The notes under the pieces: generated by a model
Told to the model about the DNA's origin: nothing
Databases searched by the model: none
The model's input: the letters and a program-made list of their open reading frames with translations, nothing else
NCBI GenBank assembly: GCA_029940035.1
Contig: JAOZRT010000018.1
Span: 1 to 32,321, forward strand
Direction of reading: 5' to 3'
DNA length: 32,321 bases
Source of the DNA: Desulfobacterales bacterium
GTDB taxonomy: Bacteria; Desulfobacterota; Desulfobacteria; Desulfobacterales; B30-G6
Position numbers and translations under genes: made by a program
Part shown: one piece after another, positions 1 through 32,321 of the stretch
Layout of the letters: every line of letters starts with the position of its first letter
Position numbering within the stretch: position 1 is the stretch's first letter

Positions 1-1189
1 TGAGGTAGGGCAGCATCAGGTAGTCCACATGGCTTTTATGGCACGGGACAAACACTATCGGGCCTTTTTGGGCCGCGGTTTTGACACGATTTAAACCGTC
101 TTCATTGTAGCTGACACCCTGGAACATGGTATTGAGGATCCAGCCCACTGTCACTTCGGCAAAACGCACTAGTCCGGCATTTTGCTTTGCGGCAATCTCA
201 TCCAGATAGGCATCGGCTTTTTTTCTGATTTTCCAAAGGGGGATGTTTCGTTTCTCGGAATGCTGGTCCATATAGCTTTTCAGCCGTTGGTTGGTCAGTA
301 TGCTCTCTTTGACTTCCTCAATTGATTTGCGCATGGGGCCTGTGATGCTCTGCCGATGGCGGTTGATCTGAAGCAGCAGGTCGCGCCTCAGCATCAGGGC
401 CTGTCGTTCTTCAGAGAGGTCGCGATTTTCGGGTGAATTCAGAAACAGCCGCAGGTTGACAGGTGTTGATACTTCATAAAACATTTTCTCAGGAGTTTTG
501 AAAAGGATCACCAGGCGACGGATAAGCCCCGGTCTGGCCTGGGAACCGAACAGGATATCCGTGACAGTCGGGACCGAACGTTTGGGTTGCTTGCCAAAGG
601 ACATGAGTTGGGGAACGATATATACAGGTTTTTCTGTGGACTTCTGGTGTTTGATTAGAAAACTGATGGGGTCGATCTGAGCTTTGACAAAACGGCGGTA
701 AAAGCCCTTTTTTTCGACCAGTGACATGAAGGCGCATTTTCCGTTCAGAAGTACCTGTGAAAAATAGCCATCGTGGTAAGGGTCTGGTTGCTTGAAGTGG
801 AGCCTAAAAGAATCCGCAGCCGATAAAAAAATCCGCAGGGTTCTGGTAATGGGTTGAAGAATAAAGAACCGGTAGCCCAGCCCTATTTCAGGCGCTGGAA
901 GGCGATGGCCTGGATATCGGGTATGAAAGAACAGAAAGTCAAACTTGCTTTTGAATTTATTCAGGTAAACGATGGTGGCATTATCCGGAATATTGCGAAT
1001 CACAGCCAATTGGTCATCATTGTCTTTGATGCCGGAAAAAAAGAGTCTGAGCAGCCACATGGAGGTTCTGCCCTTTTTTATAGGGAGATAGTTGAAAAAA
1101 TGTTCGTGGGTGCCTCCCAGAGCCTTGTCGCGCCATGATCTGAACCGGGCTGCTATTCGGGTGGCAAAGCCTTGTTTTAAGGGTTTCAT
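1..1189 (-). CDS. plsB: Glycerol-3-phosphate 1-O-acyltransferase (PlsB family), N-terminal part, cut by the window edge
   Basis: An uninterrupted frame of 396 codons runs from the ATG at 1189 leftwards off the window. It begins MKPLKQGFATRIAARF. Near the edge it reads VFVPCHKSHVDYLMLPY, the HX4D acyltransferase motif in the form typical of PlsB (E. coli has a very similar PCHRSHMDYLLLSY stretch). PlsB puts the first acyl chain on glycerol-3-phosphate at the inner membrane, starting phospholipid synthesis. The roughly 380 residues before the HX4D motif match the long N-terminal region of PlsB, not the short PlsC or PlsY proteins. An AGGA about 8 nt upstream of the ATG supports the start. The acyl-acceptor half of the protein lies outside the window. 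It is divergent from the small membrane protein at 1387. The family is confident; the symbol is slightly less so because the catalytic domain is only partly visible. Confidence 0.85.
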   Translation of the reverse strand, partial: MKPLKQGFATRIAARFRSWRDKALGGTHEHFFNYLPIKKGRTSMWLLRLFFSGIKDNDDQLAVIRNIPDNATIVYLNKFKSKFDFLFFHTRYPGHRLPAPEIGLGYRFFILQPITRTLRIFLSAADSFRLHFKQPDPYHDGYFSQVLLNGKCAFMSLVEKKGFYRRFVKAQIDPISFLIKHQKSTEKPVYIVPQLMSFGKQPKRSVPTVTDILFGSQARPGLIRRLVILFKTPEKMFYEVSTPVNLRLFLNSPENRDLSEERQALMLRRDLLLQINRHRQSITGPMRKSIEEVKESILTNQRLKSYMDQHSEKRNIPLWKIRKKADAYLDEIAAKQNAGLVRFAEVTVGWILNTMFQGVSYNEDGLNRVKTAAQKGPIVFVPCHKSHVDYLMLPYL

Positions 1190-18282: not shown

Positions 18283-19645
18283 GAATTATGACATCATTTT
18301 TCCGGTGCTGCTTGCCGGTGGTTCCGGGACGCGGTTGTGGCCCGTATCCCGGGAACTCTATCCTAAGCAACTGGTCAGCTTCATCGAAGCCGACTCCTTG
18401 ATCCAGGGAACCATCCGTCGTTTGGAACCGGTCCTGGACCGCAACCGGGTGCGGATCGTATGCGGACATGAACACTATCATGAGACCGGTAAACAGCTGC
18501 GTGATATCGGACTGACGCCGGATGGAAAAATTATTTCCGAACCTTGCGGACGCAATACCGCCCCGGCCATCCTGCTGGCCCTTTTGACGATACTCGAGGA
18601 AAACAGGGATGCTTTGGTTTTTATATTTCCGGCTGACCATGTCATCGGTGATGTGCCGGAATTCCATGAACGGTTGGCTCAGGCGGCGGCCCTTGCCCAC
18701 CAAGGGCACATCGTTACCTTCGGCATACAGCCCACATATCCTGAAACCGGTTACGGTTACATAGAAGGGCAGGGTGAAGCAACAGCCGCAGCGCTCCCTA
18801 TCAAACGTTTTGTGGAAAAGCCGGACCTTGATACCGCCAAAACCTATATCAAGGCGGGAAATTTCTTCTGGAACAGCGGCATGTTCGCTTTTAAAGGAAC
18901 CGTCATGCTGGATGAGTATGAAAAACTGGTCCCTGAGATGGTGGAGAAGATGCGTGCCCTGTTGGAAAACGGCAGACCCATTGGCAGGGAAACATATGAA
19001 AAAATGCCCAATATATCTTTTGACTACGCCATCATGGAGAAGACCACCAGAGGGGTGGTTCTTCCGTCTGATTTGGCATGGAGCGACATCGGATCCTGGA
19101 AGTCACTTTATGATTTCCTGCCCAAGGATGACCATAACAATGTGATCAACGGTGATGTGCTGACCCGCCATACTTCCAACTGTTTGATATTGGGACATGA
19201 CCGTCTGATTGCCAGCAATCGGCTGGACAACCTGGTTGTTGTCGAAACAGCCGACTCCGTGTTTGTGTCCGACCTCGACAGCAGCAGGGACGTCAAAGAG
19301 ATTGTGGATACCCTTAAACACCAAGATCGCAAAGAGTACCGTAAGCACAACACCGAGACCCATGCGTGGGGAAGCAGCACAGTTTTAGAGGACAGCAGCG
19401 ACCTGAAGATCATCAAGCGCCTGATTTCCCCTGGGACAGTTTACCGGGAAACATTCGACGTGCCGATGCTGTGGCAGGTGCTGGTGGTCAGGGGGGAGGG
19501 CATGGGAATGTTGAACGGCAGGCGTGTCTCCTTGAAGCCCGGAGATCCTGAATCACTGGTCAACCCGGTACGGGTGTCTCTGGAAACTGTTTCCGATGAA
19601 CCGCTGCTTATCGTTGAAACGCGATTGCTGACCAAGATCGATTAG
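18275..19645 (+). CDS. manC: Mannose-1-phosphate guanylyltransferase (ManC/AlgA-like) with a degenerate isomerase cupin domain
   Basis: This gene encodes 456 residues from the GTG at 18275, which has GGAGA about 8 nt upstream and overlaps dnaE by 8 bases. The nucleotidyltransferase domain begins PVLLAGGSGTRLWPVSRELYPKQLV and contains EPCGRNTAPAILLAL, FPADHVI, ETGYGYIE, KRFVEKPD (about 176-183) and FFWNSGMFAF, all typical of GDP-mannose pyrophosphorylases. The C-terminal cupin region (from about residue 365, HAWGSSTVLEDSSDLKIIKRL) aligns with type II phosphomannose isomerase. However, the usual QMHHHRAEHW-like metal site is replaced by YRETFDVPMLWQVLVVRG. It therefore probably makes GDP-mannose for envelope sugars but lacks isomerase activity. 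Translation may be coupled to dnaE. Confidence 0.88.
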   Translation: MLENYDIIFPVLLAGGSGTRLWPVSRELYPKQLVSFIEADSLIQGTIRRLEPVLDRNRVRIVCGHEHYHETGKQLRDIGLTPDGKIISEPCGRNTAPAILLALLTILEENRDALVFIFPADHVIGDVPEFHERLAQAAALAHQGHIVTFGIQPTYPETGYGYIEGQGEATAAALPIKRFVEKPDLDTAKTYIKAGNFFWNSGMFAFKGTVMLDEYEKLVPEMVEKMRALLENGRPIGRETYEKMPNISFDYAIMEKTTRGVVLPSDLAWSDIGSWKSLYDFLPKDDHNNVINGDVLTRHTSNCLILGHDRLIASNRLDNLVVVETADSVFVSDLDSSRDVKEIVDTLKHQDRKEYRKHNTETHAWGSSTVLEDSSDLKIIKRLISPGTVYRETFDVPMLWQVLVVRGEGMGMLNGRRVSLKPGDPESLVNPVRVSLETVSDEPLLIVETRLLTKID

Positions 19646-19675
19646 ACGCTTCCTCATTCCTCAATCGACTTGCTG

Positions 19676-19688
19676 GCGGCGAAGCCGC
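19676..19688 (-). repeat. Isolated GCGGC hairpin (half of the composite element, reverse orientation)
   Basis: Read on the minus strand this is GCGGC-TTC-GCCGC, identical over 13 bases to the second hairpin of the copy at 21622-21634. It lies between the convergent manC-like gene and the 140-residue gene. The first, AT-rich hairpin is not recognisable here. Confidence 0.45.
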
Positions 19689-19697
19689 ATACCGAAA

Positions 19698-20120
19698 TCA
19701 GGCAGGGATGTACTTTGTAACCTGCTGATTGATACAGAAATAAATTTCTTCATCAGACCCGAATATGTCCACGGTGTCGCGGTGGTTGATCACCTGCTCA
19801 ATGACAAAGGCGGTTACGTAGATACTGACGACGTGTGGATTGGGGATAAGCCCCCTGAATGGCGCCACCTGGTAATCGATATCAAAATCTTCTGCCCGGG
19901 TGAGCTTGTCAAGGCATTGATGAATTTGTTCCTCAAGGCCATTTTTATTGGTTGTCTCCACCAGATTGTTCTCCACCAGCTTCATGGCGATGGCGTTGCT
20001 CAAGGCATCCATGCAATCGATGACAGCCTTGATGGCAAATCGCCTGGCCCGCTCTTTTGATGATTCGATTCTGGAAAGAATGCTTGATTCATGACTGCTG
20101 GGCCGAAAAACTTTGGACAT
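19698..20120 (-). CDS. Hypothetical 140-residue protein, divergent from the T2SS operon
   Basis: I do not recognise this family. The ATG at 20120 is preceded by AAGGTGG at 6-nt spacing, so the GTG at 20129 is less likely. The protein is soluble, with no signal peptide or membrane segment. Residues 1-60 look helical and charged (SRIESSKERARRFAIKAVIDCMDALSNAIAMKLVENN). The rest is mixed, with FDIDYQVAPFRGLIPNPHVVSIYVTAFVIEQVINHRD and a C-terminal GSDEEIYFCINQQVTKYIPA. It has two scattered cysteines and no catalytic motif that I can name. Its promoter-like region is back to back with that of gspF, so shared regulation is possible but unproven. Codon use looks like that of its neighbours. Confidence 0.75.
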   Translation of the reverse strand: MSKVFRPSSHESSILSRIESSKERARRFAIKAVIDCMDALSNAIAMKLVENNLVETTNKNGLEEQIHQCLDKLTRAEDFDIDYQVAPFRGLIPNPHVVSIYVTAFVIEQVINHRDTVDIFGSDEEIYFCINQQVTKYIPA

Positions 20121-20180
20121 GTTATCCACCTTTCAATTTCACAGAACGCCGTTCCTGATCCAAGTGTCAAATTGTAGCGC

Positions 20181-20209
20181 ATAATAATGTCCGCATTTTT
20201 TAATTGCAA
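20181..20209 (-). promoter_or_regulatory. Putative promoter of the 140-residue protein gene
   Basis: On the minus strand: TTGCAA (20209-20204), a 17-nt spacer and TATTAT (20186-20181, 5/6). The predicted start near 20174 gives a leader of about 54 nt. The gene-free stretch 20121-20365 holds this promoter and the gspF promoter and no other feature that I can support. Confidence 0.5.
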
Positions 20210-20330
20210 GTAAATAATTCACCAAAATCCGATGGCGGAATCACGCAACTCCGTTTAAATCCTAAATGGTATGCAACGGTCCAAACGGATGAACTTGCAA
20301 GCGTTTTTTTATGTAAAAAAATCCAAGGTA

Positions 20331-20359
20331 TTTACAACGAAAATGGGATCGACTATAAT
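20331..20359 (+). promoter_or_regulatory. Strong sigma70-type promoter abutting the gspF start codon (predicted leaderless transcript)
   Basis: TTTACA (20331-20336, 5/6), a 17-nt spacer and a perfect TATAAT (20354-20359). Only six bases separate the -10 from the gspF ATG (20366), so transcription should start at or within a base of the A of ATG. No Shine-Dalgarno sequence is present upstream of this ATG. Confidence 0.7.
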
Positions 20360-20365
20360 CAAAAT

Positions 20366-21592
20366 ATGCCTGTTTATGAATATACCGCACTCGATATAAA
20401 GGGAAAATCAATTGCCGGGATTATCGATGCCGATAGTGCCTCCGCTGCCCGTCAAAAATTGCGCTCAACCAGGACATATCCGACGAGCATAAAGGAATCC
20501 GCTGCGTCCACCGACAAGGTCGAGAAAGGCAGACCCGCACTGACTACTCTGTTTTCAAGGGTAAAGCCTTCGGACCTGTCCATGGTGACCAGGCAGTTGG
20601 CCACGCTGGTGGGAGCTGGATTCCCCCTTGTCTCCGCCCTGGACGCGCTCCTTCCGCAAACCCGTTCAAAGGTGTTCAAAAAAATATTGGTTCAGGTGAA
20701 AGATGCGATTGTGGAAGGTAACAGCTTTGCCGGAGCCCTGTCACCGTATCCCGGGGTTTTTTCATCGCTTTACACCAATATGGTAAGGGCCGGGGAAACA
20801 TCCGGGACCCTCGAGATCGTTTTACAGCAACTTGCCGATATTACCGAAAAGCAGCAGGCGTTAAAGGGGAGAATCAGAACCGCACTGGCCTATCCGGTGT
20901 TGATGATGTTTATCGGGGCGCTGGTGCTATTTCTCCTGCTCACGTTCATCGTGCCAACCATTACATCCATATTTTCAGACATGAACCAGGTGCTTCCCGC
21001 GCCTACCCGGTTTCTCATTGCCGTGAGTGGTTTTTTCAAGTCTTGCTGGTGGATCCTGCTCATGTGCATGGCCCTTGTGCTAGCAGGGGCCCGAAGTGCT
21101 AAAAAAACAACCGGCGGGCGGTATGTCATCGACAGAGCCACGTTGATGCTCCCGCTTCTGGGACCTGTAATTCGAAAACTTTCGGTTGCGAGGTTTGCCC
21201 GCACCCTGGGATCTTTGCTGAAAAATGGCGTCACCATGCTTACCTCCATGGAAATTGTCAAAAATATAGCAGGGAACTCACTTATTTCAAGAGCCATTGA
21301 AGAAGCCACCCAGGAGGTCAGCAAAGGGCAGGGGCTCGGCGTTTCCCTAGGCAGGGCAGAGGTATTTCCCAACCTGGCCATTCAGATGATACAGGTGGGT
21401 GAGCAGAGCGGGGAACTGGAGCAGATGCTGGAAAAAATGTCTGTGGTGTATGAAAATGAAGCCGAGGCAAGTATCATGAGCATGACCTCCCTGCTGGAAC
21501 CCCTCATGATACTTTGCATGGGTCTCATCATGGGGTTCATTGTTCTGTCCATATGTCTGCCTATTTTTGAGATGAACCAGCTGGTGGGATAA
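20366..21592 (+). CDS. gspF: Type II secretion inner-membrane platform protein GspF
   Basis: This gene encodes 408 residues from the ATG at 20366 (MPVYEYTALDIKGKSIAG), the normal GspF N terminus and length. The open frame continues upstream to 20204, but that stretch has no GspF similarity. Two GspF/PilC-type helical domains contain LSMVTRQLATLVGAGFPLVSALDAL and ARFARTLGSLLKNGVTMLTSMEIV. Three membrane segments follow the usual pattern: about 230-255 (LMMFIGALVLFLLLTFIVPT), about 270-295 (a segment with FFKSCWWILLMCMALVL) and about 378-402 (MILCMGLIMGFIVLSICLPI). GspF anchors the assembly ATPase and drives pseudopilus growth. It is first in this cluster instead of following gspE. Its stop codon abuts a composite hairpin element. 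Confidence 0.94.
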   Translation: MPVYEYTALDIKGKSIAGIIDADSASAARQKLRSTRTYPTSIKESAASTDKVEKGRPALTTLFSRVKPSDLSMVTRQLATLVGAGFPLVSALDALLPQTRSKVFKKILVQVKDAIVEGNSFAGALSPYPGVFSSLYTNMVRAGETSGTLEIVLQQLADITEKQQALKGRIRTALAYPVLMMFIGALVLFLLLTFIVPTITSIFSDMNQVLPAPTRFLIAVSGFFKSCWWILLMCMALVLAGARSAKKTTGGRYVIDRATLMLPLLGPVIRKLSVARFARTLGSLLKNGVTMLTSMEIVKNIAGNSLISRAIEEATQEVSKGQGLGVSLGRAEVFPNLAIQMIQVGEQSGELEQMLEKMSVVYENEAEASIMSMTSLLEPLMILCMGLIMGFIVLSICLPIFEMNQLVG

Positions 21593-21634
21593 TAACAGCG
21601 TGTTCCACACTGTTATGTGACGCGGCTTCGCCGC
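21592..21634 (+). repeat. Composite two-hairpin element, copy B (at the gspF stop)
   Basis: ATAACAG (21592-21598), an 11-nt loop and CTGTTAT (21610-21616) form a perfect 7-bp hairpin beginning at the last base of the gspF stop and carrying a second in-frame TAA. Five nt later comes GCGGC-TTC-GCCGC (21622-21634). Same layout as copies A and C. Confidence 0.6.
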
Positions 21635-21674
21635 TATAAACATAAGAAGATAATGAGTATAATAAAGGAGTGGC

Positions 21675-22130
21675 ATGATACCATCCGTACATAAAAATAA
21701 CATCGGCAATAGAGGGTTCACCCTGATCGAACTGATGGTGGTCATCGTGATCTTAGGAATTTTGGCCGGGCTTATCGTGCCCCGAATCATGGGGCGTCCG
21801 GAAGAGGCCAAACAACTCAAATCCAAAATGACCATTGTAAGCCTGGAAACCAGCCTTCGCCTGTATAAACTGGACAACGGTTCCTACCCCACCACCGAAC
21901 AGGGGCTTCAGGCGCTTGTGGAACGGCCGGATACCGGCAATGTCCCTAAAAAATGGCGGGAGGGCGGTTATCTTGAAAAAGGGAAAGTCCCCAAGGATCC
22001 CTGGGACAATGAATACGTTTACCTCAGTCCCGGTGTAAACGGGGAGTACGACCTTGTTTCCTATGGATCGGACGGCGTGCCCGGAGGGGAAGGCAAGGAC
22101 ATGGACATCAACAGCTGGGAATTGGAATGA
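21675..22130 (+). CDS. gspG: Type II secretion major pseudopilin GspG
   Basis: This gene encodes 151 residues. A 14-residue leader ends in Gly, then the mature protein starts [22 protein letters not shown] with the required Glu at +5, so prepilin peptidase would cut between residues 14 and 15. The C-terminal half has the GspG signature: [67 protein letters not shown], which includes the calcium-binding loop. It forms the pseudopilus shaft. AAAGGAGTGGC precedes the ATG. Its last codons overlap the gspH start by four bases. Confidence 0.97.
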
Positions 22131-22654
22131 TTCCTGATCGAGGCAAATTCGGTTTGCCTGGTTTGGAAGGGTATACGCTTATAGAGCTTGTGGTTGTCAT
22201 TGCCCTGATTTCCATCATGTTTTCCTTGGCCCTGCCCAGGTTTCGGGACAATGTGCTCACCGACCAGGTCAGAAAAACCTCCCGTTGGGTAATCACCCAG
22301 ACCCGCCATTTAAAACAACAGTCCACCCGTGAGAAAAAAGACTACATCCTGCACGTGGATATGGATGCGGAAAAGCTTTGGATATCTACCCCTGACATGG
22401 AAGCGGAGGCCTTGGAACAGGCGGAAGAGGAAGCGTTTCAGCTGTCGGAGAATGTAGAGATCATGGACGTCGAGTTTCCGGGAAGGGGTAGAATCTCATC
22501 GGGACAGGTCGATATATACTTTTATGCCAAAGGCTATTCCGACAAAGCCCTGATCCACATGCAAGAGGACAATGACAGGCGGGTTTCGTTGCTCATCGAA
22601 CCATTTTTGCCGCAAACCAAATACATCGAGGATTATTCAGATTTTGACAACTGA
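22127..22654 (+). CDS. gspH: Type II secretion minor pseudopilin GspH
   Basis: This gene encodes 175 residues. A 15-residue leader ends in Gly, then [24 protein letters not shown], a class III prepilin helix with Glu at +5. Tyr at +1 is unusual, since Phe or Met is common. The rest is a beta-rich globular domain with an acidic stretch ([21 protein letters not shown]). Position between gspG and gspI, and length, fit GspH, a tip or shaft minor pseudopilin. It overlaps gspG by ATGA, so translation is probably coupled. The similarity is only in the helix; the subtype is assigned from order. Confidence 0.88.
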
Positions 22655-22682
22655 ACCGGCATCGCGGGCCACAATCAAACCC

Positions 22683-23099
22683 ATGGGGTTTATCATCCGA
22701 AAATCAAAATACCGCTTCAGCGGCTTCACGCTGCTGGAGGTTATGGTATCCCTCTCGATTATTGCCATTGCCCTTCTGGCGGTTTACGGCAACTATTCAC
22801 AAACCATTGCGATGAGTGCGGACCAACAGTTCAATATCACCGCTCCTTTGTTGGCGGCCAGGGTTGTCGCGGATTTTGAGAACAGGCCACTTGCAGACCT
22901 CACGGATGAAACCGGCAACTTTGGCCCGGAACTCGAGGGATATGCGTGGTCGGTTGTGGTGGACCCCATTACCTCGGACACGCTGGAAAGTATTGCCGAA
23001 GATCTCCACAGCATTAACATAACCGTGTCCTTGAACAATCAAGAAAAGGTGTTTCAGTGTAAGACCGTACGGTTTATACGCAGGGAGAGCGGAAACTGA
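22683..23099 (+). CDS. gspI: Type II secretion minor pseudopilin GspI
   Basis: This gene encodes 138 residues from the ATG at 22683 (MGFIIRKSKYRFSG then FTLLEVMVSLSIIAIALLAVYGNYSQTI). The prepilin cut falls after Gly14, with Glu at +5. GspI starts the pseudopilus tip complex with GspJ and GspK. The open frame continues upstream into gspH to 22572, but this ATG gives a leader of normal length. No strong ribosome site is visible, so coupling to gspH (28 nt earlier) is possible. Its TGA overlaps the gspJ ATG. Confidence 0.9.
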   Translation: MGFIIRKSKYRFSGFTLLEVMVSLSIIAIALLAVYGNYSQTIAMSADQQFNITAPLLAARVVADFENRPLADLTDETGNFGPELEGYAWSVVVDPITSDTLESIAEDLHSINITVSLNNQEKVFQCKTVRFIRRESGN

Positions 23100-23782
23100 T
23101 GCAGATACGGGATCAAAAACATTCTGCACACGGTTTCACGCTGGTGGAAGTGTTGATTGCCACTCTTATTTTCGGCATTATCGTAACCACCGTTTTTGCC
23201 TCCTATCGATCCGTATTTGTGAGCGCCCCCATTATTGAAAGCAACATCAATTTGTATGAAATGTCAGGGGCCTGTTTGGGACGCATCGCCCTCGACCTGC
23301 GATCGATTTGCATAACGCAGCCCCCGGCTTACCGGAAACCTGAGTTCGATGCCGAACCGGACCCGCACAGGGTGGTCGGGACCGCCGAAGGGACAGACAG
23401 CACACCCCGCCTCAGATTCGCTTCCCTGGCCCATCTCCCCCTGGAACAATCAAGCCGTGAAGGCGTAGCACAAATCGTTTATTATGAAACCCCCGCCGGA
23501 GAAGAGGTGTTCCAACTGCGGCGCGCTGACAACCTTTATCCTTATCCGCCTTTTGAAGCGGATGGCCGGGATCCTGTTCTGTGTGATATGGTGAAAAAGC
23601 TGGAAATTAGATATTTTGACCAGGAAGGCAACGATTACGAATATTGGGATTCCGAGTCAGACGAATTTGATTACGCCACACCCTCTGCCGTCAATTTTCT
23701 GATAGAGCTGGTCCGGAACGGAACCGCGTCTGTTTTTGAAACCCGGGTGTCTCTGCCGGTCGTGCGGGAGAGCCTTGAATGA
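23099..23782 (+). CDS. gspJ: Type II secretion minor pseudopilin GspJ
   Basis: This gene encodes 227 residues. A 12-residue leader ending in Gly precedes FTLVEVLIATLIFGIIVTTVFASYRSV, with Glu at +5. The large C-terminal domain contains PRLRFASLAHLP, IVYYETPAGEEVFQLRRADN and KKLEIRYFDQEGNDYEYWDS, typical of the GspJ beta-fold. It binds GspI and GspK at the pseudopilus tip. It shares one base with the gspI stop and overlaps gspK by ATGA, giving a tightly packed set of reading frames. Confidence 0.92.
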   Translation: MQIRDQKHSAHGFTLVEVLIATLIFGIIVTTVFASYRSVFVSAPIIESNINLYEMSGACLGRIALDLRSICITQPPAYRKPEFDAEPDPHRVVGTAEGTDSTPRLRFASLAHLPLEQSSREGVAQIVYYETPAGEEVFQLRRADNLYPYPPFEADGRDPVLCDMVKKLEIRYFDQEGNDYEYWDSESDEFDYATPSAVNFLIELVRNGTASVFETRVSLPVVRESLE

Positions 23783-24846
23783 AAAGATTGGCTAACAACA
23801 GCGGTATAGCCCTTTTGATGACCCTTACCATCGTTACCCTGCTGGTGGTGACGACGCTCGAACTGCACCGCAGGGCGCGCTCAGCCCTCCTTGCATCAGA
23901 TACAGAAAAGAACAGGTTTACCCTGGAACAGATTGCCGCATCCGGTATCCATGCGGGCATGGCCTTGCTCATCAGGGACAAGGAAGACGGCGACATCGAT
24001 TCTGTTCAGGAAGATTGGGCCAACAAGGAAAAACTCGACGAACTGCTCCTTGATCTGCCTTTTGAGCACGGCCTCCCCGACGTGACTATCACCGACGAAC
24101 TCGGCAAGATCCAGGTCAATTCACTGGTAAAGTTCCCGGACAGCCGTCAGTTCAACGAGGTGCAGCGCAATATGTGGGAGCACTTTCTGAACCTGGCCAT
24201 TTCTCCTCTGGATAGGACGGAGGATACGGAACCAACGGCCATTATAAATTCCATCAAGGATTGGCTTGATGCAGGGGATGACGATGCCACTACCGGTTTG
24301 AGCGGTGCCGAGTCAGACTACTATATGGACCTGGAAGAGGCATATCCGGCTAAGAACGGCCCTTTGACGCATCTGGGGGAATTTACAATGATCAAGGGGA
24401 TCAGCCAGGAATTCTTCGACGGTGTCGGCGGCGTTCCGGGGATAGGAAAATACATGACCGTGTTCGGTGTGTCGATTACACCTGACAACCGGTTTACCTA
24501 CAAGGGCACCATTAATATCAATACGGCGGACCATCCCGTCATTGCAGCCATCCTGCCGGTGGAGGATGAATTTCTGGCACAGGCAATCTACGAATACAGG
24601 GAAGAGATGTCTGACGAAAAATTCATCCACGATCTGTCCGGCAAGACATGGTATCAGAACGCACCCGGGTGCAGCGAGGTGGACATCGATCCCGGGCTGA
24701 TCATGAATAAAAGCGATCTTTTTAAAATTACGTCAACGGCCAGTCTATTGGACATGACAATGAGCATCAGTGCCATAGTTCAGAGGGTCAGAATAGAGAA
24801 AACAGGGCAATGGTACTGTAAAATCTTGAGTTGGCAGGAAAATTAA
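23779..24846 (+). CDS. gspK: Type II secretion pseudopilin-like protein GspK
   Basis: This gene encodes 355 residues. A short leader ending NNSG precedes IALLMTLTIVTLLVVTTLEL. The +5 position is Met instead of Glu, as expected for GspK, which caps the tip. The large globular domain follows, with DELGKIQVNSLV, INSIKDWLDAGDDDATTGLSGAESDYYMDLEEAYPAKNGPLTHLGEF, and GTININTADHPVIAAILP, the helix-hairpin-like motif of GspK. It overlaps gspJ by four bases. The 92-nt gap after it contains several hairpins. Confidence 0.94.
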   Translation: MKRLANNSGIALLMTLTIVTLLVVTTLELHRRARSALLASDTEKNRFTLEQIAASGIHAGMALLIRDKEDGDIDSVQEDWANKEKLDELLLDLPFEHGLPDVTITDELGKIQVNSLVKFPDSRQFNEVQRNMWEHFLNLAISPLDRTEDTEPTAIINSIKDWLDAGDDDATTGLSGAESDYYMDLEEAYPAKNGPLTHLGEFTMIKGISQEFFDGVGGVPGIGKYMTVFGVSITPDNRFTYKGTININTADHPVIAAILPVEDEFLAQAIYEYREEMSDEKFIHDLSGKTWYQNAPGCSEVDIDPGLIMNKSDLFKITSTASLLDMTMSISAIVQRVRIEKTGQWYCKILSWQEN

Positions 24847-24849
24847 GCT

Positions 24850-24894
24850 ATAAATATCATTTATGCATCAGGCCTTGAGCATGGAACCCAAGGC
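24850..24894 (+). repeat. Paired hairpins after gspK (possible relative of the composite element)
   Basis: ATAAAT (24850-24855), ATC, ATTTAT (24859-24864), then 7 nt and a second stem GCCTTG (24872-24877) with CAAGGC (24889-24894). The AT-rich first stem resembles that of copies A-C, but the second stem is a different sequence. It begins 4 nt after the gspK stop. Confidence 0.4.
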
Positions 24895-24904
24895 TGCAAT
24901 AAAT

Positions 24905-24941
24905 CATTTCATGCCCGGATAACACCGTCAGGCATGAAATG
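24905..24941 (+). promoter_or_regulatory. Perfect 11-bp inverted repeat covering a candidate gspL start codon
   Basis: CATTTCATGCC (24905-24915) and GGCATGAAATG (24931-24941) are perfect reverse complements around a 15-nt loop. The last three bases of the right arm are the ATG at 24939, and the AGG that could serve as ribosome site is also in the arm. No T-run follows, so this is not an intrinsic terminator. It may lower or regulate gspL translation. Confidence 0.6.
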
Positions 24942-26405
24942 TTTCGGGATCTCATGAGCAGAAAAATTCTGGGACTGGATATAAACGAAACTGCTGTTTC
25001 AGCGGTACTCGTCAGGGGCGGTATAAAGGGCAACTGGATAGAAGACCATCGGCATATCCCTTTTCCCGGGGATCAAGACGATGAAGAATCGCTGTCGCTG
25101 GCCCTGGAAACAATTGCCGCGGAAATGGATCTGGAGGGGGCCACCTGCATTGCTTCCCTGCCGGCCAGCCTGGCTGCTTTTCGCAATATGAAAGCACCTT
25201 TCAAGGAGCAGAAAAAGCTTCGCCAGATTATGCCCTATGAGCTGGAATCCATCCTGCCGTACCCACCGGAGGATGTCATCATTGATTTCAATGTGCTGAA
25301 CAACGTGGCGGATACGGAACAGCACCTTGTCTTTACGGCAGCCATTCAAAAAGAAAAAGTGGGGTTTTATCTCGACCAGCTCAAATCGCATGGCCTCGAA
25401 CCGGACGTGCTCACCATCAGCGGTTATGCGCTGGCCAGTTCATTGGCCACCTATTCAAATGACAACACAAATCGTCTGCTTGCCTTGATTGAACCGCATC
25501 GGGCAACGCTTTTTCTGCTGCTCGACGGCAACATCTGCCTCGTGCGTTCACTCAGGGCGCAATTGAGCACTGCGGCGGGGGTTAGCCATTTTTGCTCGAT
25601 TGTTCACCAAACGCTTGCCGGTTTTCAAAAACATACAGGCCTGGATGGTGACATCCAGGAAGTGATGCTGACGGGTAGCGCCCTGGAAGATTCTCATGTT
25701 GAAGATGCCATCCGCGAAGAACTCGGGATCCCGGTGAGGACCATGGATCTCATTGCCTTGAGCGGACAGGTTTCCATCGACACCGAGGGTGTCATGTGGA
25801 AGGTCAATACCATGGATGCGTCCCTCGCACTTGCCATGAGCGCGATCGTGGGATTCGATCTCTTGAATTTTCGCAGGGGTGGGTTTACGGTTCAGAAGGG
25901 GTGGGTCCAGTATCAAGGCGATATCCTTAAAACCGGGCTGATCGCCCTGGTGGTGGTTCTGCTCTTTTTTGGGAATTTCGTAGCTGATTATTTTTCCATG
26001 AAAAAACGTTCCATGCGTGTGGAGGAAGAGGTTCGCAACGTATTCTCATCCACGTTTCCCGATGTAAAACGGATCGTCGATCCGCTCCAGCAGATGCGTG
26101 TAAAGCTGGATGAGCTCAAAAAAGACGCTACTTTTTCGGCAAAAACAAATCGTTCGGTAATGGCCATTGACGTACTGAATGATATCAGCCGCCACATCCC
26201 CAAACAGATAGATGTCGAGCTTTCAAGTGTTATTATCGGCGCAGACAGCGTTCTCATTTCCGGCGACACCGGAGGGTTCGATGCGGTTGACGATGTAAAG
26301 AGCAGTCTGGAGAACGCCGCGTTGTTTAAAAGTGTCTCCATCACCTCAACAAATAAGGATCGAAGCGGGGATCGCGTACGCTTCAAAATAAAGGCCGTCA
26401 TCTGA
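24939..26405 (+). CDS. gspL: Type II secretion inner-membrane protein GspL (actin-like/PilM-like)
   Basis: This gene encodes 488 residues from the ATG at 24939; a second in-frame ATG at 24954 gives MSRKILGLDINETAVSAVLV, which fits the family N terminus equally well. Residues 6-300 are an actin-like ASKHA fold as in PilM/GspL: ILGLDINETAVSAV, CIASLPASLAAFRNMKAPF, MPYELESILPYPPEDVIIDF, and LTGSALEDSHVEDAI. A membrane segment lies at about 332-352 (LIALVVVLLFFGNFVADYF), followed by a periplasmic ferredoxin-like domain. It links the GspE ATPase to GspM and the platform. A hairpin covers the first start codon. It shares one base with gspM (TGATG). Confidence 0.9.
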   Translation: MFRDLMSRKILGLDINETAVSAVLVRGGIKGNWIEDHRHIPFPGDQDDEESLSLALETIAAEMDLEGATCIASLPASLAAFRNMKAPFKEQKKLRQIMPYELESILPYPPEDVIIDFNVLNNVADTEQHLVFTAAIQKEKVGFYLDQLKSHGLEPDVLTISGYALASSLATYSNDNTNRLLALIEPHRATLFLLLDGNICLVRSLRAQLSTAAGVSHFCSIVHQTLAGFQKHTGLDGDIQEVMLTGSALEDSHVEDAIREELGIPVRTMDLIALSGQVSIDTEGVMWKVNTMDASLALAMSAIVGFDLLNFRRGGFTVQKGWVQYQGDILKTGLIALVVVLLFFGNFVADYFSMKKRSMRVEEEVRNVFSSTFPDVKRIVDPLQQMRVKLDELKKDATFSAKTNRSVMAIDVLNDISRHIPKQIDVELSSVIIGADSVLISGDTGGFDAVDDVKSSLENAALFKSVSITSTNKDRSGDRVRFKIKAVI

Positions 26406-26950
26406 TGCAGTGGTTCAAACCTATCGCCATGAAACTTAACCGGCGCGAAAGGGTGGCCGTAATGGCCGGCGTCGGATTCATCTGTCTGTTTGTGGTGGTT
26501 AAATTTGCGATTTTTCCCTTTATGGACCGCAAAGACAGATTGAGGCGCAGCCTGACGGTGAACAGCCGCAATCTGGAGGAGATCCGTTCTCTCAAGGCAG
26601 AATATGAAACCCTCATCAGTACGGGAGAACAGGCTGAAAAACGGTTTAAAAAACGCCGGAAAAGCTTTACGCTTCTCTCTTTTCTTGTCCAACTTGCCGG
26701 TGAGGTCGGGATTAAGGATAAAATGGCCTCCATGAAACCGACCCTGACCCAGCAAAAGGACAGCCCGTATAAAATATCCCAGGTGGAGATGAAACTGAAG
26801 GGACTGAGCCTTGAGCAGATCACCCAATATCTTTATAAAATCGAAACCTCTAAAAATATGGTCAGCATTAAAAGGATTTCATTGACCAAGAGCGACGACA
26901 AACAAGGGATATTAAACGTTGTATTGCAGGTAGAGACGCTTGAAGTGTAA
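26405..26950 (+). CDS. gspM: Type II secretion inner-membrane protein GspM
   Basis: This gene encodes 181 residues. A short cytoplasmic N terminus (MQWFKPIAMKLNRRERVAV) leads to one membrane segment (about 19-39, MAGVGFICLFVVVKFAIFPF), a charged coiled-coil-like stretch (residues 40-85), and a small periplasmic domain with VEMKLKGLSLEQITQYLYKIE. That layout is the GspM/PilO type; GspM is the partner of GspL in the platform. The assignment rests on topology and on position between gspL and gspN, because GspM sequences are poorly conserved. It begins on the gspL stop. Confidence 0.88.
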   Translation: MQWFKPIAMKLNRRERVAVMAGVGFICLFVVVKFAIFPFMDRKDRLRRSLTVNSRNLEEIRSLKAEYETLISTGEQAEKRFKKRRKSFTLLSFLVQLAGEVGIKDKMASMKPTLTQQKDSPYKISQVEMKLKGLSLEQITQYLYKIETSKNMVSIKRISLTKSDDKQGILNVVLQVETLEV

Positions 26951-26953
26951 CCT

Positions 26954-27823
26954 ATGAATAAATTAAGCAAATGGGTACTTTATTCCGGATATATCATTGC
27001 CGTGACCGCATTTTTTATGTATGTGCTGTTTCCGGCGGATGCAGCCATGGAGTATGTTTCCGGCTATCTTGGAAAGCATTATCCTGAATATGCCGTTACA
27101 GCGGACACCGTAAAGCCGGCCTTTCCACCGGGGTTGAAACTCCGTGCGGTCTCCATCGCATACCGGGAAGATACATGGGTCAACATTGATCAGCTGTATG
27201 TGCGGCCACAGTATCTGTCGATCCTTTCGCCTCTAAAAACAGTGCGCTTTATCGGCAAGGCTTACAGCGGAGATCTAAAGGGATCAATCGACATCCAAAA
27301 AGCAGACACTGGTTACCAGGTGACCGCGGCCGTCGAGTTGAAAGGGATCCGGCTGGAGGAAAATGAATATTTGCAAACACTTTCCGGGCGCAAGATAGCA
27401 GGGCGTTTGGACAGCACCATCAGCTTCGGCAGTGAGAGCGGGACCGATAACAGCGTGGATGTCATCCTGCATGTTGAGGATGGAGAGGTGGGGTTGACCA
27501 ACCCGGTTTTCAGCATAAACAATCTTGCATTTGATAAACTAGAGGCTGAGCTAATTGTCGACCGGCGTTCGTTGCGACTCAACCGTTGTGAAATAGCCGG
27601 CGATCAGATTGACGGTGACGTCACCGGCGTGGTTCTTTTCCGAAAACCTTTTGAGCGGAGCCGGCTTGAATTCAAGGGGAATGTAGCGCCGCAGCACCTT
27701 CTGATGGCGAGTTTAAAAAAAGCGCTGCCGAAAAGCCTGCTGCCCTCAAAAAAAACAGGAGAAAAAGGCTTTCCCGTCAAACTGTACGGAACTGTCGAGA
27801 AACCGAAATTTTCAGTGCGATGA
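26954..27823 (+). CDS. gspN: Type II secretion accessory protein GspN
   Basis: This gene encodes 289 residues. An N-terminal membrane anchor (about 8-28, YSGYIIAVTAFFMYVLFPAD) is followed by a beta-rich periplasmic region: AFPPGLKLRAVSIAYRED, SILSPLKTVRFIGKAYSGDLKGSIDI, LAFDKLEAELIVDRRSLRL, DGDVTGVVLFRKPFERSRLEFKG and a C terminus like GTVEKPKF. It matches the long-form GspN of Desulfobacterota-type systems, which resembles AsmA-like periplasmic proteins; its exact role in secretion is unclear. It overlaps gspC by ATGA. No good ribosome site, so it is probably coupled to gspM, 3 nt upstream. Confidence 0.85.
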   Translation: MNKLSKWVLYSGYIIAVTAFFMYVLFPADAAMEYVSGYLGKHYPEYAVTADTVKPAFPPGLKLRAVSIAYREDTWVNIDQLYVRPQYLSILSPLKTVRFIGKAYSGDLKGSIDIQKADTGYQVTAAVELKGIRLEENEYLQTLSGRKIAGRLDSTISFGSESGTDNSVDVILHVEDGEVGLTNPVFSINNLAFDKLEAELIVDRRSLRLNRCEIAGDQIDGDVTGVVLFRKPFERSRLEFKGNVAPQHLLMASLKKALPKSLLPSKKTGEKGFPVKLYGTVEKPKFSVR

Positions 27824-28683
27824 GATTCTATCTGACCATAATTAACCTGTTGCTCATTACGGGAGTCGCCTATTTCAGTGTCGGCCTGTTTTACCAGACT
27901 GCCGTATCAAGGCTTGTGACGGAGAACCCTGGATTGACTGCGGTCGGAAAAACCCAGTCTGTCAATAATGAATCCCATAAAACCCTGGATGAATACCAAC
28001 AGATCAAGGAACGCAATCTTTTCCGCTTGCAAAGGAAACAACCAATTGAAATCGTAGAAGACAAAGTCGATATCGCCGAATTGAAAACAACCGAACTCAA
28101 ATTGAAATTGTGGGGAACCGTCACCGGACAAACCGCGGAAACCTATGCGGTCATCGAAGATACAAAATTGAGGAAGCAGACCCTTTACAGGGTAAACGAT
28201 ACTGTACAAAATGCCATTGTGAAAGAAATACATCGCGAAAAAGTTATCCTGGACGTGGACGGCACCTACGAGGTCCTGGAAATGGAAAAAATTAAAAGCG
28301 CTTCTGCATCCTCCCGGCGTCGCAGCGGATCTTCGGCAAAAACAAGCAAACAGCCGGTTCAGACAAACATTACGCTGAAGCGTGATAAAATTGAAACAGC
28401 GGTCAATGACCTGAATTCTTTAATGAAACAGATTCGCATTCGGCCGCACTTCAAGGATGGCAACCCTGACGGGCTCACCATTTCCGGGATTCGGTCCAAA
28501 TCAATCTTCAGCGACATGGGACTGAGAAACGGTGACGTGATCACCGGCGTGGATGGGAATAAAATCGAATCGGTGGACGATGCATTGAAACTCTATGAAA
28601 ATCTTCAATCGTCCAGCGGGGTCCAAATCGAAATCAGAAGAAGGGGACAACTCAGGACCATTGACTACAAAATCGAAGAATAA
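27820..28683 (+). CDS. gspC: Type II secretion protein GspC with PDZ domain
   Basis: This gene encodes 287 residues. A membrane segment (about 4-25, YLTIINLLLITGVAYFSVGL) is followed by the homology region (LKTTELKLKLWGTVTGQTAETYAVIEDTKLRKQTLYRVNDTV), which binds the secretin N0 domain. A Ser/Arg-rich linker (about 163-185) precedes a C-terminal PDZ domain (about 207-287: LTISGIRSKSIFSDMGLRNGDVITGVDGNKIES). GspC connects the inner platform to GspD and helps select substrates. It lies after gspN and before gspD instead of first in the cluster. Its stop codon is part of a composite hairpin element. Confidence 0.94.
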   Translation: MRFYLTIINLLLITGVAYFSVGLFYQTAVSRLVTENPGLTAVGKTQSVNNESHKTLDEYQQIKERNLFRLQRKQPIEIVEDKVDIAELKTTELKLKLWGTVTGQTAETYAVIEDTKLRKQTLYRVNDTVQNAIVKEIHREKVILDVDGTYEVLEMEKIKSASASSRRRSGSSAKTSKQPVQTNITLKRDKIETAVNDLNSLMKQIRIRPHFKDGNPDGLTISGIRSKSIFSDMGLRNGDVITGVDGNKIESVDDALKLYENLQSSSGVQIEIRRRGQLRTIDYKIEE

Positions 28684-28722
28684 ATGTGCTTCCGGCAAAT
28701 TTATCGAACGCGGCCATGCCGC
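28680..28722 (+). repeat. Composite two-hairpin element, copy C (overlaps the gspC stop)
   Basis: ATAAAT (28680-28685), a 13-nt loop and ATTTAT (28699-28704) contain the gspC TAA stop. Five nt later comes GCGGC-CAT-GCCGC (28710-28722). Layout and spacer length match copies A and B, though the sequence is more diverged. Confidence 0.55.
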
Positions 28723-28752
28723 CATATTGAAATCCAGGTGGATAATCAAATC

Positions 28753-30819
28753 ATGAGGTATACTAGTTTGAAAACAGATTCTGGAATGAACAGTGTCATG
28801 CAGCGCCCTTTCCGGAGTTGGCTGGCTCTCTTGATCGTGGCCGGCGGGGTCTTTTGCTGCACGCTCTTGTGCGGCACAGCCATGGCCCAGAACCATGAAA
28901 AAGAGACCCCTAAGGATGCTGATAAGGCGGCCTCGAAAAAATTGAACCCCTCCCAGCCGGTATCCATTGATTTCAACAACGTGGATATCAATGTTCTGAT
29001 TAAATTTATCAGCGAAATGACCGGTAAAAATTTTGTCGTCGACCAGCGGGTAAAAGGCAAGGTCACCATTATTTCACCCTCTAAAATATCTGTGGATGAA
29101 GCATATCGTGTTTTTGAATCCGTCCTGGAAGTGCACGGATATACCACGGTAAAAGCGGACAAAATCATCAAGATCGTCCCGTCCCCGGATGCGCGTTCCA
29201 AGAATATCGAGACAAGACTCAGGGAGGAAAGTGGCCTGGCTGAGGATAAAGTGATCACCCAGTTGATTCCGCTGAAATATGCCAACCCCAGCGAGGTAAA
29301 AAAACTGCTTTCTCCACTGGTGTCCAAGAGCAGTGTCATTCTCGACTATCCGCCCACCAACATGCTAATTGTCACGGATGTCTACTCCAATATCAAGCGA
29401 TTGCAGAAAATCATCAAAACCATCGATATCATGGGAATTGGTCAGGAATTGTCCATCCTGCCGCTGCAACATGCCAATGCCAAGGACCTGGTTAAAATCA
29501 TGCAGTCTGTTTTCACGGCCCGAAAGGCCAAGTCCAAAAAGAGTGCCTTAACAGACACGATTAATTTTGTGGCTGACGACCGCACCAACACCCTGATAGT
29601 TCTGGCCAGTAAAACCAATACCTATCGGATAAAGGAATTGGTGGACATGCTGGACAGGGAAACGCCCAAAGGCAAGGAGGGCATCCACGTTTATTACCTG
29701 GAGAACGCCGTTGCCGAAGACCTGGCCAAGGTCCTTCAAGACCTTCCCACAGAAAAAAGCGCTAAAGGGTCCTCCAAGGTTCCTAAAAAAGCACCGGTGA
29801 TTTCCAGCGGTGTGGTCATCAAAGCGGATAAAGCCACCAACAGTCTGATTATCATGGCCGAAAAAGAAGATTATCTGTTTCTGGAAACTATTATTAAAAA
29901 ACTGGATATCCCCCGTTCCATGGTCTACATCGAATGCCTGATCATGGAGGTCAACCTGGACAAGGATTTCAACCTGGGAACCGAATGGACAGCGGCCGGG
30001 GAAGTCAATTATAATGGGAAGGAAGGTGCCTACGGCGGCGGGTTCAGCGGGCAGGACCCCGGCTACAGCAACATTGCCGGAATGGGCGGCGGGATTGCCG
30101 GTATCGGTACCTTTCCCCCCGGTTTGTCAGTGGGTGTATTGGGCGAGTTTATCGAGGTGGGGGGGATCAAGTTCCCGAGCATTGCCGCCGTTGTTCAGGC
30201 GTATAAAAAGGATAAGGATGTCCATATCCTGGCAACCCCCCAATTGTTGACCACCGACAACGAAGAAGCCAGCATCAACGTGGGCAAGAATGTTCCTTTT
30301 CAAACCCGGTCCGCTGCTGATACCGGTATTGAAACCTACAGTTCGTATGAGTACAGGGATGTGGGCATCACTCTGAAAATAACCCCCCATATCAGCAAGG
30401 AACGTTTCGTGCGCATGAACATCTTCGAGGAGATGACCAAACTGGATGAACTGGCCACAACCTCGCCGGACCGGCCAACCACCCTGAAGCGCACCATCGA
30501 AACCACCGTGATTGTCAATGACAAGAATACCATTGTTCTCGGAGGATTGATCGATGATTCATTTTCCAGAACGGAGAACAAGATTCCCTGCCTGGGGGAC
30601 ATCCCCTTGCTTGGGTGGTTTTTTAAATCCATCTCCGAATCAAGGGAAAAAACGAACCTGTATGTTTTTCTGACACCCCATGTGATCGAGAATGAGGCAG
30701 AAGCGGCTGCCATCTACACCAATAAAAAGGGGGTCATGGATGAAAAGAAAGCCGGCAGCATAAAGATGTACGATGATGATCCGGTATATCAGCAACAGAT
30801 CCTGGATGAAGATGAGTAG
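28753..30819 (+). CDS. gspD: Type II secretion outer-membrane secretin GspD
   Basis: This gene encodes 688 residues from the ATG at 28753, which has AGGTGGAT about 10 nt upstream. The frame is open to 28684, and later ATGs at 28786 and 28798 are possible. A Sec signal peptide (FRSWLALLIVAGG to GTAMA, cut near residue 45) precedes N0 (VSIDFNNVDINVLIKFISEMTGKNFVVDQRVKGKVTI), three KH-like N1-N3 domains with repeated PLKYANPSEVKKLLSPL, LPLQHANAKDLVKIMQSVF and YYLENAVAEDLAKVLQDLP motifs, and the secretin core with VHILATPQLLTTDNEEASINVGKNVPF and TVIVNDKNTIVLGGLIDDS. It forms the gated outer-membrane channel. It lies upstream of gspE, separated by 48 nt. Confidence 0.95.
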   Translation: MRYTSLKTDSGMNSVMQRPFRSWLALLIVAGGVFCCTLLCGTAMAQNHEKETPKDADKAASKKLNPSQPVSIDFNNVDINVLIKFISEMTGKNFVVDQRVKGKVTIISPSKISVDEAYRVFESVLEVHGYTTVKADKIIKIVPSPDARSKNIETRLREESGLAEDKVITQLIPLKYANPSEVKKLLSPLVSKSSVILDYPPTNMLIVTDVYSNIKRLQKIIKTIDIMGIGQELSILPLQHANAKDLVKIMQSVFTARKAKSKKSALTDTINFVADDRTNTLIVLASKTNTYRIKELVDMLDRETPKGKEGIHVYYLENAVAEDLAKVLQDLPTEKSAKGSSKVPKKAPVISSGVVIKADKATNSLIIMAEKEDYLFLETIIKKLDIPRSMVYIECLIMEVNLDKDFNLGTEWTAAGEVNYNGKEGAYGGGFSGQDPGYSNIAGMGGGIAGIGTFPPGLSVGVLGEFIEVGGIKFPSIAAVVQAYKKDKDVHILATPQLLTTDNEEASINVGKNVPFQTRSAADTGIETYSSYEYRDVGITLKITPHISKERFVRMNIFEEMTKLDELATTSPDRPTTLKRTIETTVIVNDKNTIVLGGLIDDSFSRTENKIPCLGDIPLLGWFFKSISESREKTNLYVFLTPHVIENEAEAAAIYTNKKGVMDEKKAGSIKMYDDDPVYQQQILDEDE

Positions 30820-30867
30820 CCCTTGTATTCAAATGCCTTTCCGCTGATGTATTGAAAGAAGATACCC

Positions 30868-32321
30868 ATGCAGCCCTTATCCCAGATCCTGAACACACAA
30901 TTTAACGTCTCCGAACAAGATGTGGATGAAGCCCTTCAGATCAAGGGTAAAACCGGAGGGGATGTGGGTGAGATCCTGTGTCGCAAAATGGTGATTACCG
31001 AGCACCAACTCCTGGCGGCCAGGGGGATTCAATATCAACTGCCCGTCTGGGATAAAATTCCCCTGGAAAACATCCAGAGAGATTTTACCCAGAAAGTGCC
31101 GATCCAGTTCCTAAAGAGATTCCACATGCTCCCGTTGGAAATACAGGCAGCGCCCGTGGGTTCGTCCGAAGAGCCACCCGAAATCCAGGCCGAGGATTTC
31201 CATGCGGTAGCGAAAAAGGACGCCATTGCCGTCCATGATCCGGCGGATTTTCAACCGCTGGACGACCTGGCCGGGCTGCTGGGTATGGCATCTTTTGATG
31301 TTGTGCTGTCCACCAGGGAAGAAATCATCGCAGCCATCAATTTTGCCTATGATATGAGCAGGGATTCGGCCGAACAGCTGGTTCAGGACATGGAAGCGGA
31401 CGACGGCATGATCATCGGCGAAATGGAGGGCACGGCCGACCTCCTGGACGACACCAGCGATGCCCCCATCATCAAACTGGTCAATCATATTCTGTCGCAG
31501 TCTATCAAAGCCAGAGCCAGTGACATTCACATCGAGCCTTATCAGGAAAGTTTCAAGGTTCGCTATCGAGTCGACGGCATCCTGTATGATTTGCTGACCC
31601 CCCCCAAATGGATCCAGGCCTCTCTGATCTCCAGGATCAAGGTGATGGCTAAAATGAACATCGCTGAAAAAAGGCTGCCCCAGGATGGCCGACTTGAGGT
31701 TAAAATCGGCAATATGCAGATCGACGTCCGTGTTTCCACCATCCCGACGTCATTTGGGGAACGCGTTGTTCTCAGGTTGTTGAATAAAACCAGCTCCCTG
31801 CTTACGCTTTCGGATCTGGGACTAAACAAAGACCGCTTGACCACTTTGGAAAAACTGGTTTCCTCACCCAATGGAATTATTCTGATAACCGGGCCCACGG
31901 GCAGCGGCAAGACAACGACGCTTTACGCAATTCTGTCTTCCCTCAACTCGCCGGATATCAATATCATTACCATCGAAGACCCCATTGAATACCAGATTAA
32001 CGGCATCAGCCAGATACAGGTCAACCCCAAGATTGACCTGACCTTTGCCCTGGGCCTGAGATCCATTGTCCGTCAGGATCCCGACGTGATACTGGTGGGT
32101 GAAATCCGCGATCACGAAACAGCAGAGATAGCCGTGCAGTCTGCGCTTACCGGCCATCTCGTGTTTTCAACGCTGCACACCAACGATTCGGCCGGGGCCA
32201 TTACAAGACTTGTGGATATCGGTATCGAGCCTTTTCTCATCTCATCCTCGGTCATTGCCGTGGCCGCGCAGAGGCTTGTGCGGGTACTTTGTGAAAAGTG
32301 CAAGGAACCGTACAATCCGGA
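30868..32321 (+). CDS. gspE: Type II secretion assembly ATPase GspE, C terminus cut by the window edge
   Basis: 484 codons are visible from the ATG at 30868. The N-terminal domain (about 1-70, with VSEQDVDEALQIKGKTGGDVGEIL) is the GspL-binding type found in GspE/PilB. Then come VNHILSQSIKARASDIHIEPY and RYRVDGILYDL (N2 domain), Walker A GPTGSGKTTTLYAIL at about residue 342, the Asp box IITIEDPIEYQI, Walker B DPDVILVGEIRD at about 405, and the His box GHLVFSTLHTNDS. The last residues (RVLCEKCKEPYNP) begin the four-cysteine zinc motif; the rest lies beyond the window. It powers pseudopilus assembly from the cytoplasm. No strong ribosome site; AAAGAAGA lies upstream. Confidence 0.96.
   Translation, partial: MQPLSQILNTQFNVSEQDVDEALQIKGKTGGDVGEILCRKMVITEHQLLAARGIQYQLPVWDKIPLENIQRDFTQKVPIQFLKRFHMLPLEIQAAPVGSSEEPPEIQAEDFHAVAKKDAIAVHDPADFQPLDDLAGLLGMASFDVVLSTREEIIAAINFAYDMSRDSAEQLVQDMEADDGMIIGEMEGTADLLDDTSDAPIIKLVNHILSQSIKARASDIHIEPYQESFKVRYRVDGILYDLLTPPKWIQASLISRIKVMAKMNIAEKRLPQDGRLEVKIGNMQIDVRVSTIPTSFGERVVLRLLNKTSSLLTLSDLGLNKDRLTTLEKLVSSPNGIILITGPTGSGKTTTLYAILSSLNSPDINIITIEDPIEYQINGISQIQVNPKIDLTFALGLRSIVRQDPDVILVGEIRDHETAEIAVQSALTGHLVFSTLHTNDSAGAITRLVDIGIEPFLISSSVIAVAAQRLVRVLCEKCKEPYNP

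Follow-up and report, generated by a model that had tools for sequence, protein, structure and literature searches.

A promoter abutting gspF and a predicted leaderless start of the type II secretion operon in a Desulfobacterales genome

Background

In leaderless mRNAs the 5'-terminal AUG is recognised by ribosomes that carry the initiator tRNA, a process in which IF2 is given a central role (PMC10783764). The closest described class is that of the TA-led leaderless genes (Zheng et al. 2011, PMC3160421), which are presented there as having a TANNNT -10-type box about 12 nt before the start codon and no Shine-Dalgarno (SD) sequence. According to the same paper the class occurs in some delta-Proteobacteria, and 8 of 33 genomes of that group hold leaderless genes (PMC3160421). 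The gspF gene described here shares both features with the TA-led genes as that paper gives them, but its -35 element is also near consensus, and relatives carry the same promoter ahead of leaders predicted to be about 80 and 130 nt long. The ORFs that adjoin a -10 element in Deinococcus-Thermus (PMC12340547) likewise use an abutting -10 for expression via leaderless mRNA; this is described as an important expression mode of that phylum, whereas here gspF is just one of the genes of an order in which SD use is mixed. The non-SD genes of PMC5397173, as characterised there, resemble the many gspF orthologs that have a predicted leader and no strong SD, and differ from the gspF of the present genome, which is predicted to have lost its leader. 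No earlier report of a leaderless gspF was found in the literature searched, as judged by titles and the openings of abstracts.

The analysis covers a window of 32,321 nt, which is one complete contig of a 5.17-Mb draft genome, together with close relatives among Desulfobacterales/Deltaproteobacteria assemblies. We consider it likely, from sequence comparison, that a sigma-70-type promoter abuts gspF so that the mRNA of the type II secretion system (T2SS) operon would start on the AUG or no more than about 2 nt away from it, that GspF initiation would be leaderless, and that the leader shrank in an ancestor. A leaderless gspF would be a credible rather than a remarkable example of an established type of gene start, and the evolutionary series around it is useful: four genomes hold one conserved promoter at differing distances from one conserved, SD-poor start codon. 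Such a series allows two questions to be asked: do leadered genes without an SD give rise to leaderless ones, and does the loss of a leader alter expression?

The T2SS operon and the gspF start codon

The features of the locus are collected in Table 1. GspF scores over its curated TIGR02120 cut-off, as do GspG, L, N, C and D, encoded downstream, over theirs, and the gene is thus a true T2SS gspF. The H-like and J-like pseudopilins score slightly under the Pfam cut-offs, while gspE extends past the contig end and its truncated product scores under the NCBIfam cut-off. The GspE N terminus (30868–32319) weakly resembles the MshE-type c-di-GMP-binding motif, with 29.3 bits where the cut-off is 38. 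The divergent gene that bounds the intergenic region has no Pfam or NCBIfam match, and a 143-aa divergent ORF is found at the same place in two relatives of the same genus (L033 and L005). In the window, no known RNA family was detected at gathering thresholds.

Table 1. Coordinates of the gspF promoter, the T2SS operon and the neighbouring gene in the window.
Feature	Position	Strand	Remarks
Divergent gene bounding the intergenic region	19698..20120	-	No known family; ORF list start GTG 20129, better SD at ATG 20120
33-nt promoter block	20327..20359	+	Conserved in the family, spacer included
-35 element TTTACA	20331..20336	+	Identical in L033, L005 and L037
-10 element TATAAT	20354..20359	+	TATGAT in L033, TATAAT in L005, TATACT in L037
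Expected transcription start (A of gspF ATG)	20366..20366	+	Predicted from promoter geometry; -1 pyrimidine here and in L033
gspF, first gene of the T2SS operon	20366..21592	+	Start MPVYEYTALD; no SD; TIGR02120 433.6 bits (cut-off 424); PF00482
SD of gspG, AAAGGAG	21664..21670	+	Strong
gspG, major pseudopilin, second gene	21675..22130	+	TIGR01710
Remaining operon: gspH-like, I-like and J-like pseudopilin genes, gspK, L, M, N, C, D, start of gspE	22127..32319	+

The ortholog set comprised 112 sequences, reduced to 100 non-redundant ones by the removal of two paralogs (L002 and L003) and 10 identical copies. All 100 have ATG as the gspF start codon, and the protein begins with MPVYEY in 85 and with MPVFEY in 10. 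In L033, L005 and a third relative of the same family (L037), in-frame stops are located 1–2 codons before the ATG and no conserved N-terminal extension of GspF is present. A longer GspF starting at TTG 20204 was rejected, since these stops show that its frame is not conserved in the three relatives. Judged by the conserved N terminus, the true start is ATG 20366; a longer conserved form, which the initial annotation had named as evidence that would count against a leaderless gene, was not found in L033, L005 or L037.

The promoter ahead of gspF

Immediately upstream of gspF the plus strand reads TTTACA, 17 nt, TATAAT, CAAAAT and then ATG (20366–20368), and the arrangement TTTACA-17-TATAAT-6-ATG that the initial annotation had placed at 20331–20368 is exact in both sequence and range. 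The site matches TTGACA/TATAAT in 11 of 12 positions and is the top one of eight promoter-like sites in a scan of 18500–22500. With 6 nt separating it from the start codon, the -10 is placed as expected of a leaderless gene, and the second-position A of TATAAT lies 11 nt before the ATG, inside the range of 8–14 given in PMC3160421 for the distance from this A to the transcription start. From the promoter geometry, the expected +1 of the mRNA would be the A of the ATG.

The selection of transcription starts in bacteria varies by a few bases, and the AAAA run at 20361–20364 places purines closer to the -10. The promoter could therefore be real and its start shifted, either 3–5 nt upstream, which would leave a tiny leader, or to the G of the ATG, which would leave an incomplete start codon. 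We regard such a shift as improbable, because, of the purines nearby, the A of the ATG stands at the spacing from the -10 that is most commonly used, and a pyrimidine precedes it both here and in L033. If transcription begins with the A of the AUG, or no more than about 2 nt from it, a ribosome already carrying the initiator tRNA would recognise the 5'-terminal AUG and GspF would be made from a leaderless message, while gspG would be translated from its own strong SD. GspG is required in many more copies than GspF, and the arrangement suggests that the levels of the platform protein and the major pseudopilin could be set by different initiation routes in one operon.

The intergenic region before gspF has a GC content of 36%, and across the genome the pattern TTKACA-16..18-TATAAT occurs six times, barely above the four occurrences of a reversed control pattern, as would be expected if the promoter were a chance resemblance in AT-rich DNA. 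The gspF site alone among the six has an ATG 4–9 nt downstream. When the 236-nt intergenic region was shuffled 5000 times with dinucleotides preserved, 20 of the shuffles had an 11/12 site at any position and one had it 5–8 nt before the ATG. Together with the family comparison given below, which is the stronger argument, this makes a chance origin most improbable, and on these grounds we reject it.

Conservation of the promoter and its distance to the ATG

The comparison of upstream regions in related genomes that had been proposed at the outset was carried out. A 33-nt block, including the spacer, is kept in the four family members sampled, i.e., this genome (L001) and the assemblies G001, G002 and G003; since the upstream regions of L033 and L037 are identical to those of L004 (in G001) and L007, respectively, the three other members are those sampled under these assembly names. 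Mismatches to the block number 0 in L001, 3 in L033, 2 in L005 and 8 in L037, while the remaining 96 non-redundant orthologs have at least 13, the next best being 13. Shuffling the L037 upstream region 300 times never brought the mismatches down to 8. A BLAST search with 20300–20365 gave alignments to G001 and G002 that span exactly this block and no more. Within the genus the spacer is conserved almost as well as the hexamers, and for this reason a regulator may additionally bind at the spacer of the promoter.

The distance between the block and the start codon is not conserved. The nearest relative, L033, whose GspF is 84% identical, has TTTACA-17-TATGAT-6-ATG and thus the same geometry as the window; its weaker -10 is a point against the leaderless reading. 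Both of these genomes have 6 nt from the -10 to the start codon; in L005 this distance is 87 nt and in L037 it is 136 nt, so that the predicted leaders measure 0, 0, 81 and 130 nt. A tree of 14 GspF rows places this genome beside L033 (80/74), unites the two with L005 in a clade (99/97), and adds L037 next (100/98). The leaderless state of gspF is therefore probably derived by loss of a leader and not the ancestral condition: a promoter shared by the family would have stood some 80–130 nt before the gene, and this leader would have shrunk away in the common ancestor of this genome and L033. A loss on that branch is the simplest history and has moderate support; since the node that unites this genome with L033 has only moderate support, two separate losses, or a gain in L005, are possible, less simple alternatives. 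The L005 leader was also considered as an inserted repeat, a possibility that was rejected, as in the four genomes searched its only strong match is at its own place.

Promoters were also sought, with a hand-entered promoter matrix, within 150 nt of gspF in 99 ortholog loci (L021 was dropped, having less than 150 nt upstream). A promoter of at least 9 bits is present in 39 of them, against 3.2 (sd 1.6) in shuffles. In five loci from three lineages (L001/L033, L045/L046 and L026) it lies 5–8 nt before the ATG, compared with 0.22 in shuffles; in the other 34 it lies 32–119 nt upstream. The sequence in L045 and L046, TTGACC-17-TAAAAT-8-ATG, has the appearance of a separate near-leaderless start.

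Shine-Dalgarno use at gspF and other genes

The gspF of the window has an anti-SD duplex energy of -3.1 kcal/mol and no SD motif, in agreement with the initial annotation and with what is expected of a leaderless gene. The strong SDs that the annotation set against it are equally real (gspG -8.4, guaB -10.3 and cmk -10.8 kcal/mol); the contrast was, however, selective, in that nine other genes of the window (sppA, dnaE, gspL, gspM, gspN, gspC, gspD, gspE and a TsaC-like gene, some with guessed starts) also have no strong SD. With a cut-off of -4.5 kcal/mol, which is our own choice, 6 of 12 unambiguous starts from the window and sampled stretches of the same genome are without an SD.

Among the 100 orthologs, the median energy at gspF is -3.0 kcal/mol and 19 reach the cut-off, as do 14.7% of shuffled 20-mers. 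The PilC-type paralogs of relatives have a median of -9.7 kcal/mol and 35 of 38 reach the cut-off (two of the 40 rows, with starts one codon off, were left out; by eye, L178 has no SD and L179 has one), as opposed to 6 of 30 gspF genes from the same search. The cut-off is likewise reached by 55 of 58 gspG genes (95%) in the ortholog loci, a control biased by the choice of the gspG start, for which the candidate with the strongest SD was taken. The p values attached to these SD comparisons overstate the case, since related loci are not independent. Grouped by promoter, an SD at the cut-off is present in 0 of 5 gspF loci with an abutting promoter, in 8 of 34 with a strong promoter 32–119 nt upstream, and in 11 of 60 in which no strong promoter was found.

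Thus 26 of the 34 leadered orthologs have no strong SD, and gspF was probably already independent of SD pairing when it lost its leader, so that the absence of the SD would predate that of the leader. The loss of the leader would have cost little, as there was no SD to lose. For the initial annotation this means that a leaderless start is favoured by the conserved promoter, by the expected +1 at the ATG and by the same geometry in L033, but that the absence of an SD is not to be read as a consequence of leaderlessness. The further suggestion that a leaderless first gene would uncouple gspF output from the usual initiation route is only half right, because an SD is not seen in most of the leadered relatives as well. 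About evenly balanced, in our judgement, is the wider reading that the series (leaders of about 130, 81, 0 and 0 nt, the same promoter, an SD-poor start) records the birth of a leaderless gene, that leaders are deleted mainly in genes already independent of the SD, and that L045/L046 and L026 are separate occurrences.

The same orthologs bear on the possibility that most translation of gspF uses a message with a longer leader that has no SD, made from another and perhaps non-sigma-70 promoter in 20130–20330, with the TATAAT block minor or differently regulated and with initiation in an unstructured, AU-rich start region. The 34 loci (of 99) with a 9-bit promoter further upstream, most of them without a strong SD, are compatible with it, as is the weaker folding of gspF start regions compared with pilC start regions (median -7.0 versus -9.6 kcal/mol, composition not controlled). 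On the other hand, 18500–20331 holds no further plus-strand promoter-like site at the scan threshold, and within 20300–20365 the alignment of G001 and G002 is confined to the promoter block. We consider this explanation unlikely, although somewhat less so than a shifted start, and retain the leaderless start from the abutting promoter as the preferred one.

The absence of an SD is weakened as a mark peculiar to gspF by the 6 of 12 unambiguous starts and by dnaE, for which 0 of 30 genes reach the cut-off, whereas 30 of 30 guaB genes do (own genome included; dnaE starts were picked regardless of SD). SD use is accordingly a property of individual genes that, to judge from these genomes, is kept over long times, and gspF falls in an ordinary SD-poor class. 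The SD-poor state of dnaE (14755 in the window; L242–L271) is consistent throughout, and guaB is located upstream of it in the window. SD-lessness of gspF throughout the phylum was rejected, since 9 of 20 chosen high-scoring gspF starts outside the order reach the cut-off. Translational coupling to a short upstream ORF was likewise rejected: an SD-led ORF ending no more than 25 nt from the ATG is found in 6 of 99 loci, against 6.2 in shuffles.

Promoter-abutted starts elsewhere and candidate operators

The pattern TTGACA-16..18-TANNNT-5..7-ATG occurs at 16 sites in the genome, and in 11 of these the ATG opens a frame of at least 83 aa, compared with 1 of 14 sites for a control gap of 14–16 nt (Fisher p 0.0008; one of 15 control sites was dropped because it shares promoter and frame with a site of the 5–7 gap). 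The genome thus appears to use leaderless starts at other genes too. The 11 ORFs presumably encode ArsR-, MarR- and TetR-like regulators, ATPases, a rhodanese-like protein and small proteins of the toxin-antitoxin kind. In 58 relatives, matches to the promoter-like pattern number 772 at the leaderless gap and 678 at the gap of 14–16 nt (Wilcoxon p 0.085, binomial p 0.015), which disfavours a large excess across the order; an order-wide excess is weak at most.

For the rhodanese-like gene, the promoter abuts the ATG in three of three genomes of the genus (L204, L218 and L219). Its promoter spacers are palindrome-like, e.g., ACCACACTGTGG in L204, which suggests an operator.

Seven gspF loci (L035, L038, L049, L054, L057, L070 and L071) have TTGAAA-17-TATTAT followed by a conserved imperfect dyad, ATCATT...AATGAT, that by eye overlaps the -10 element and is possibly an operator as well. 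Part of this dyad is also present in L048, L052, L056 and L066, and the whole arrangement lies about 60–150 nt upstream of gspF.
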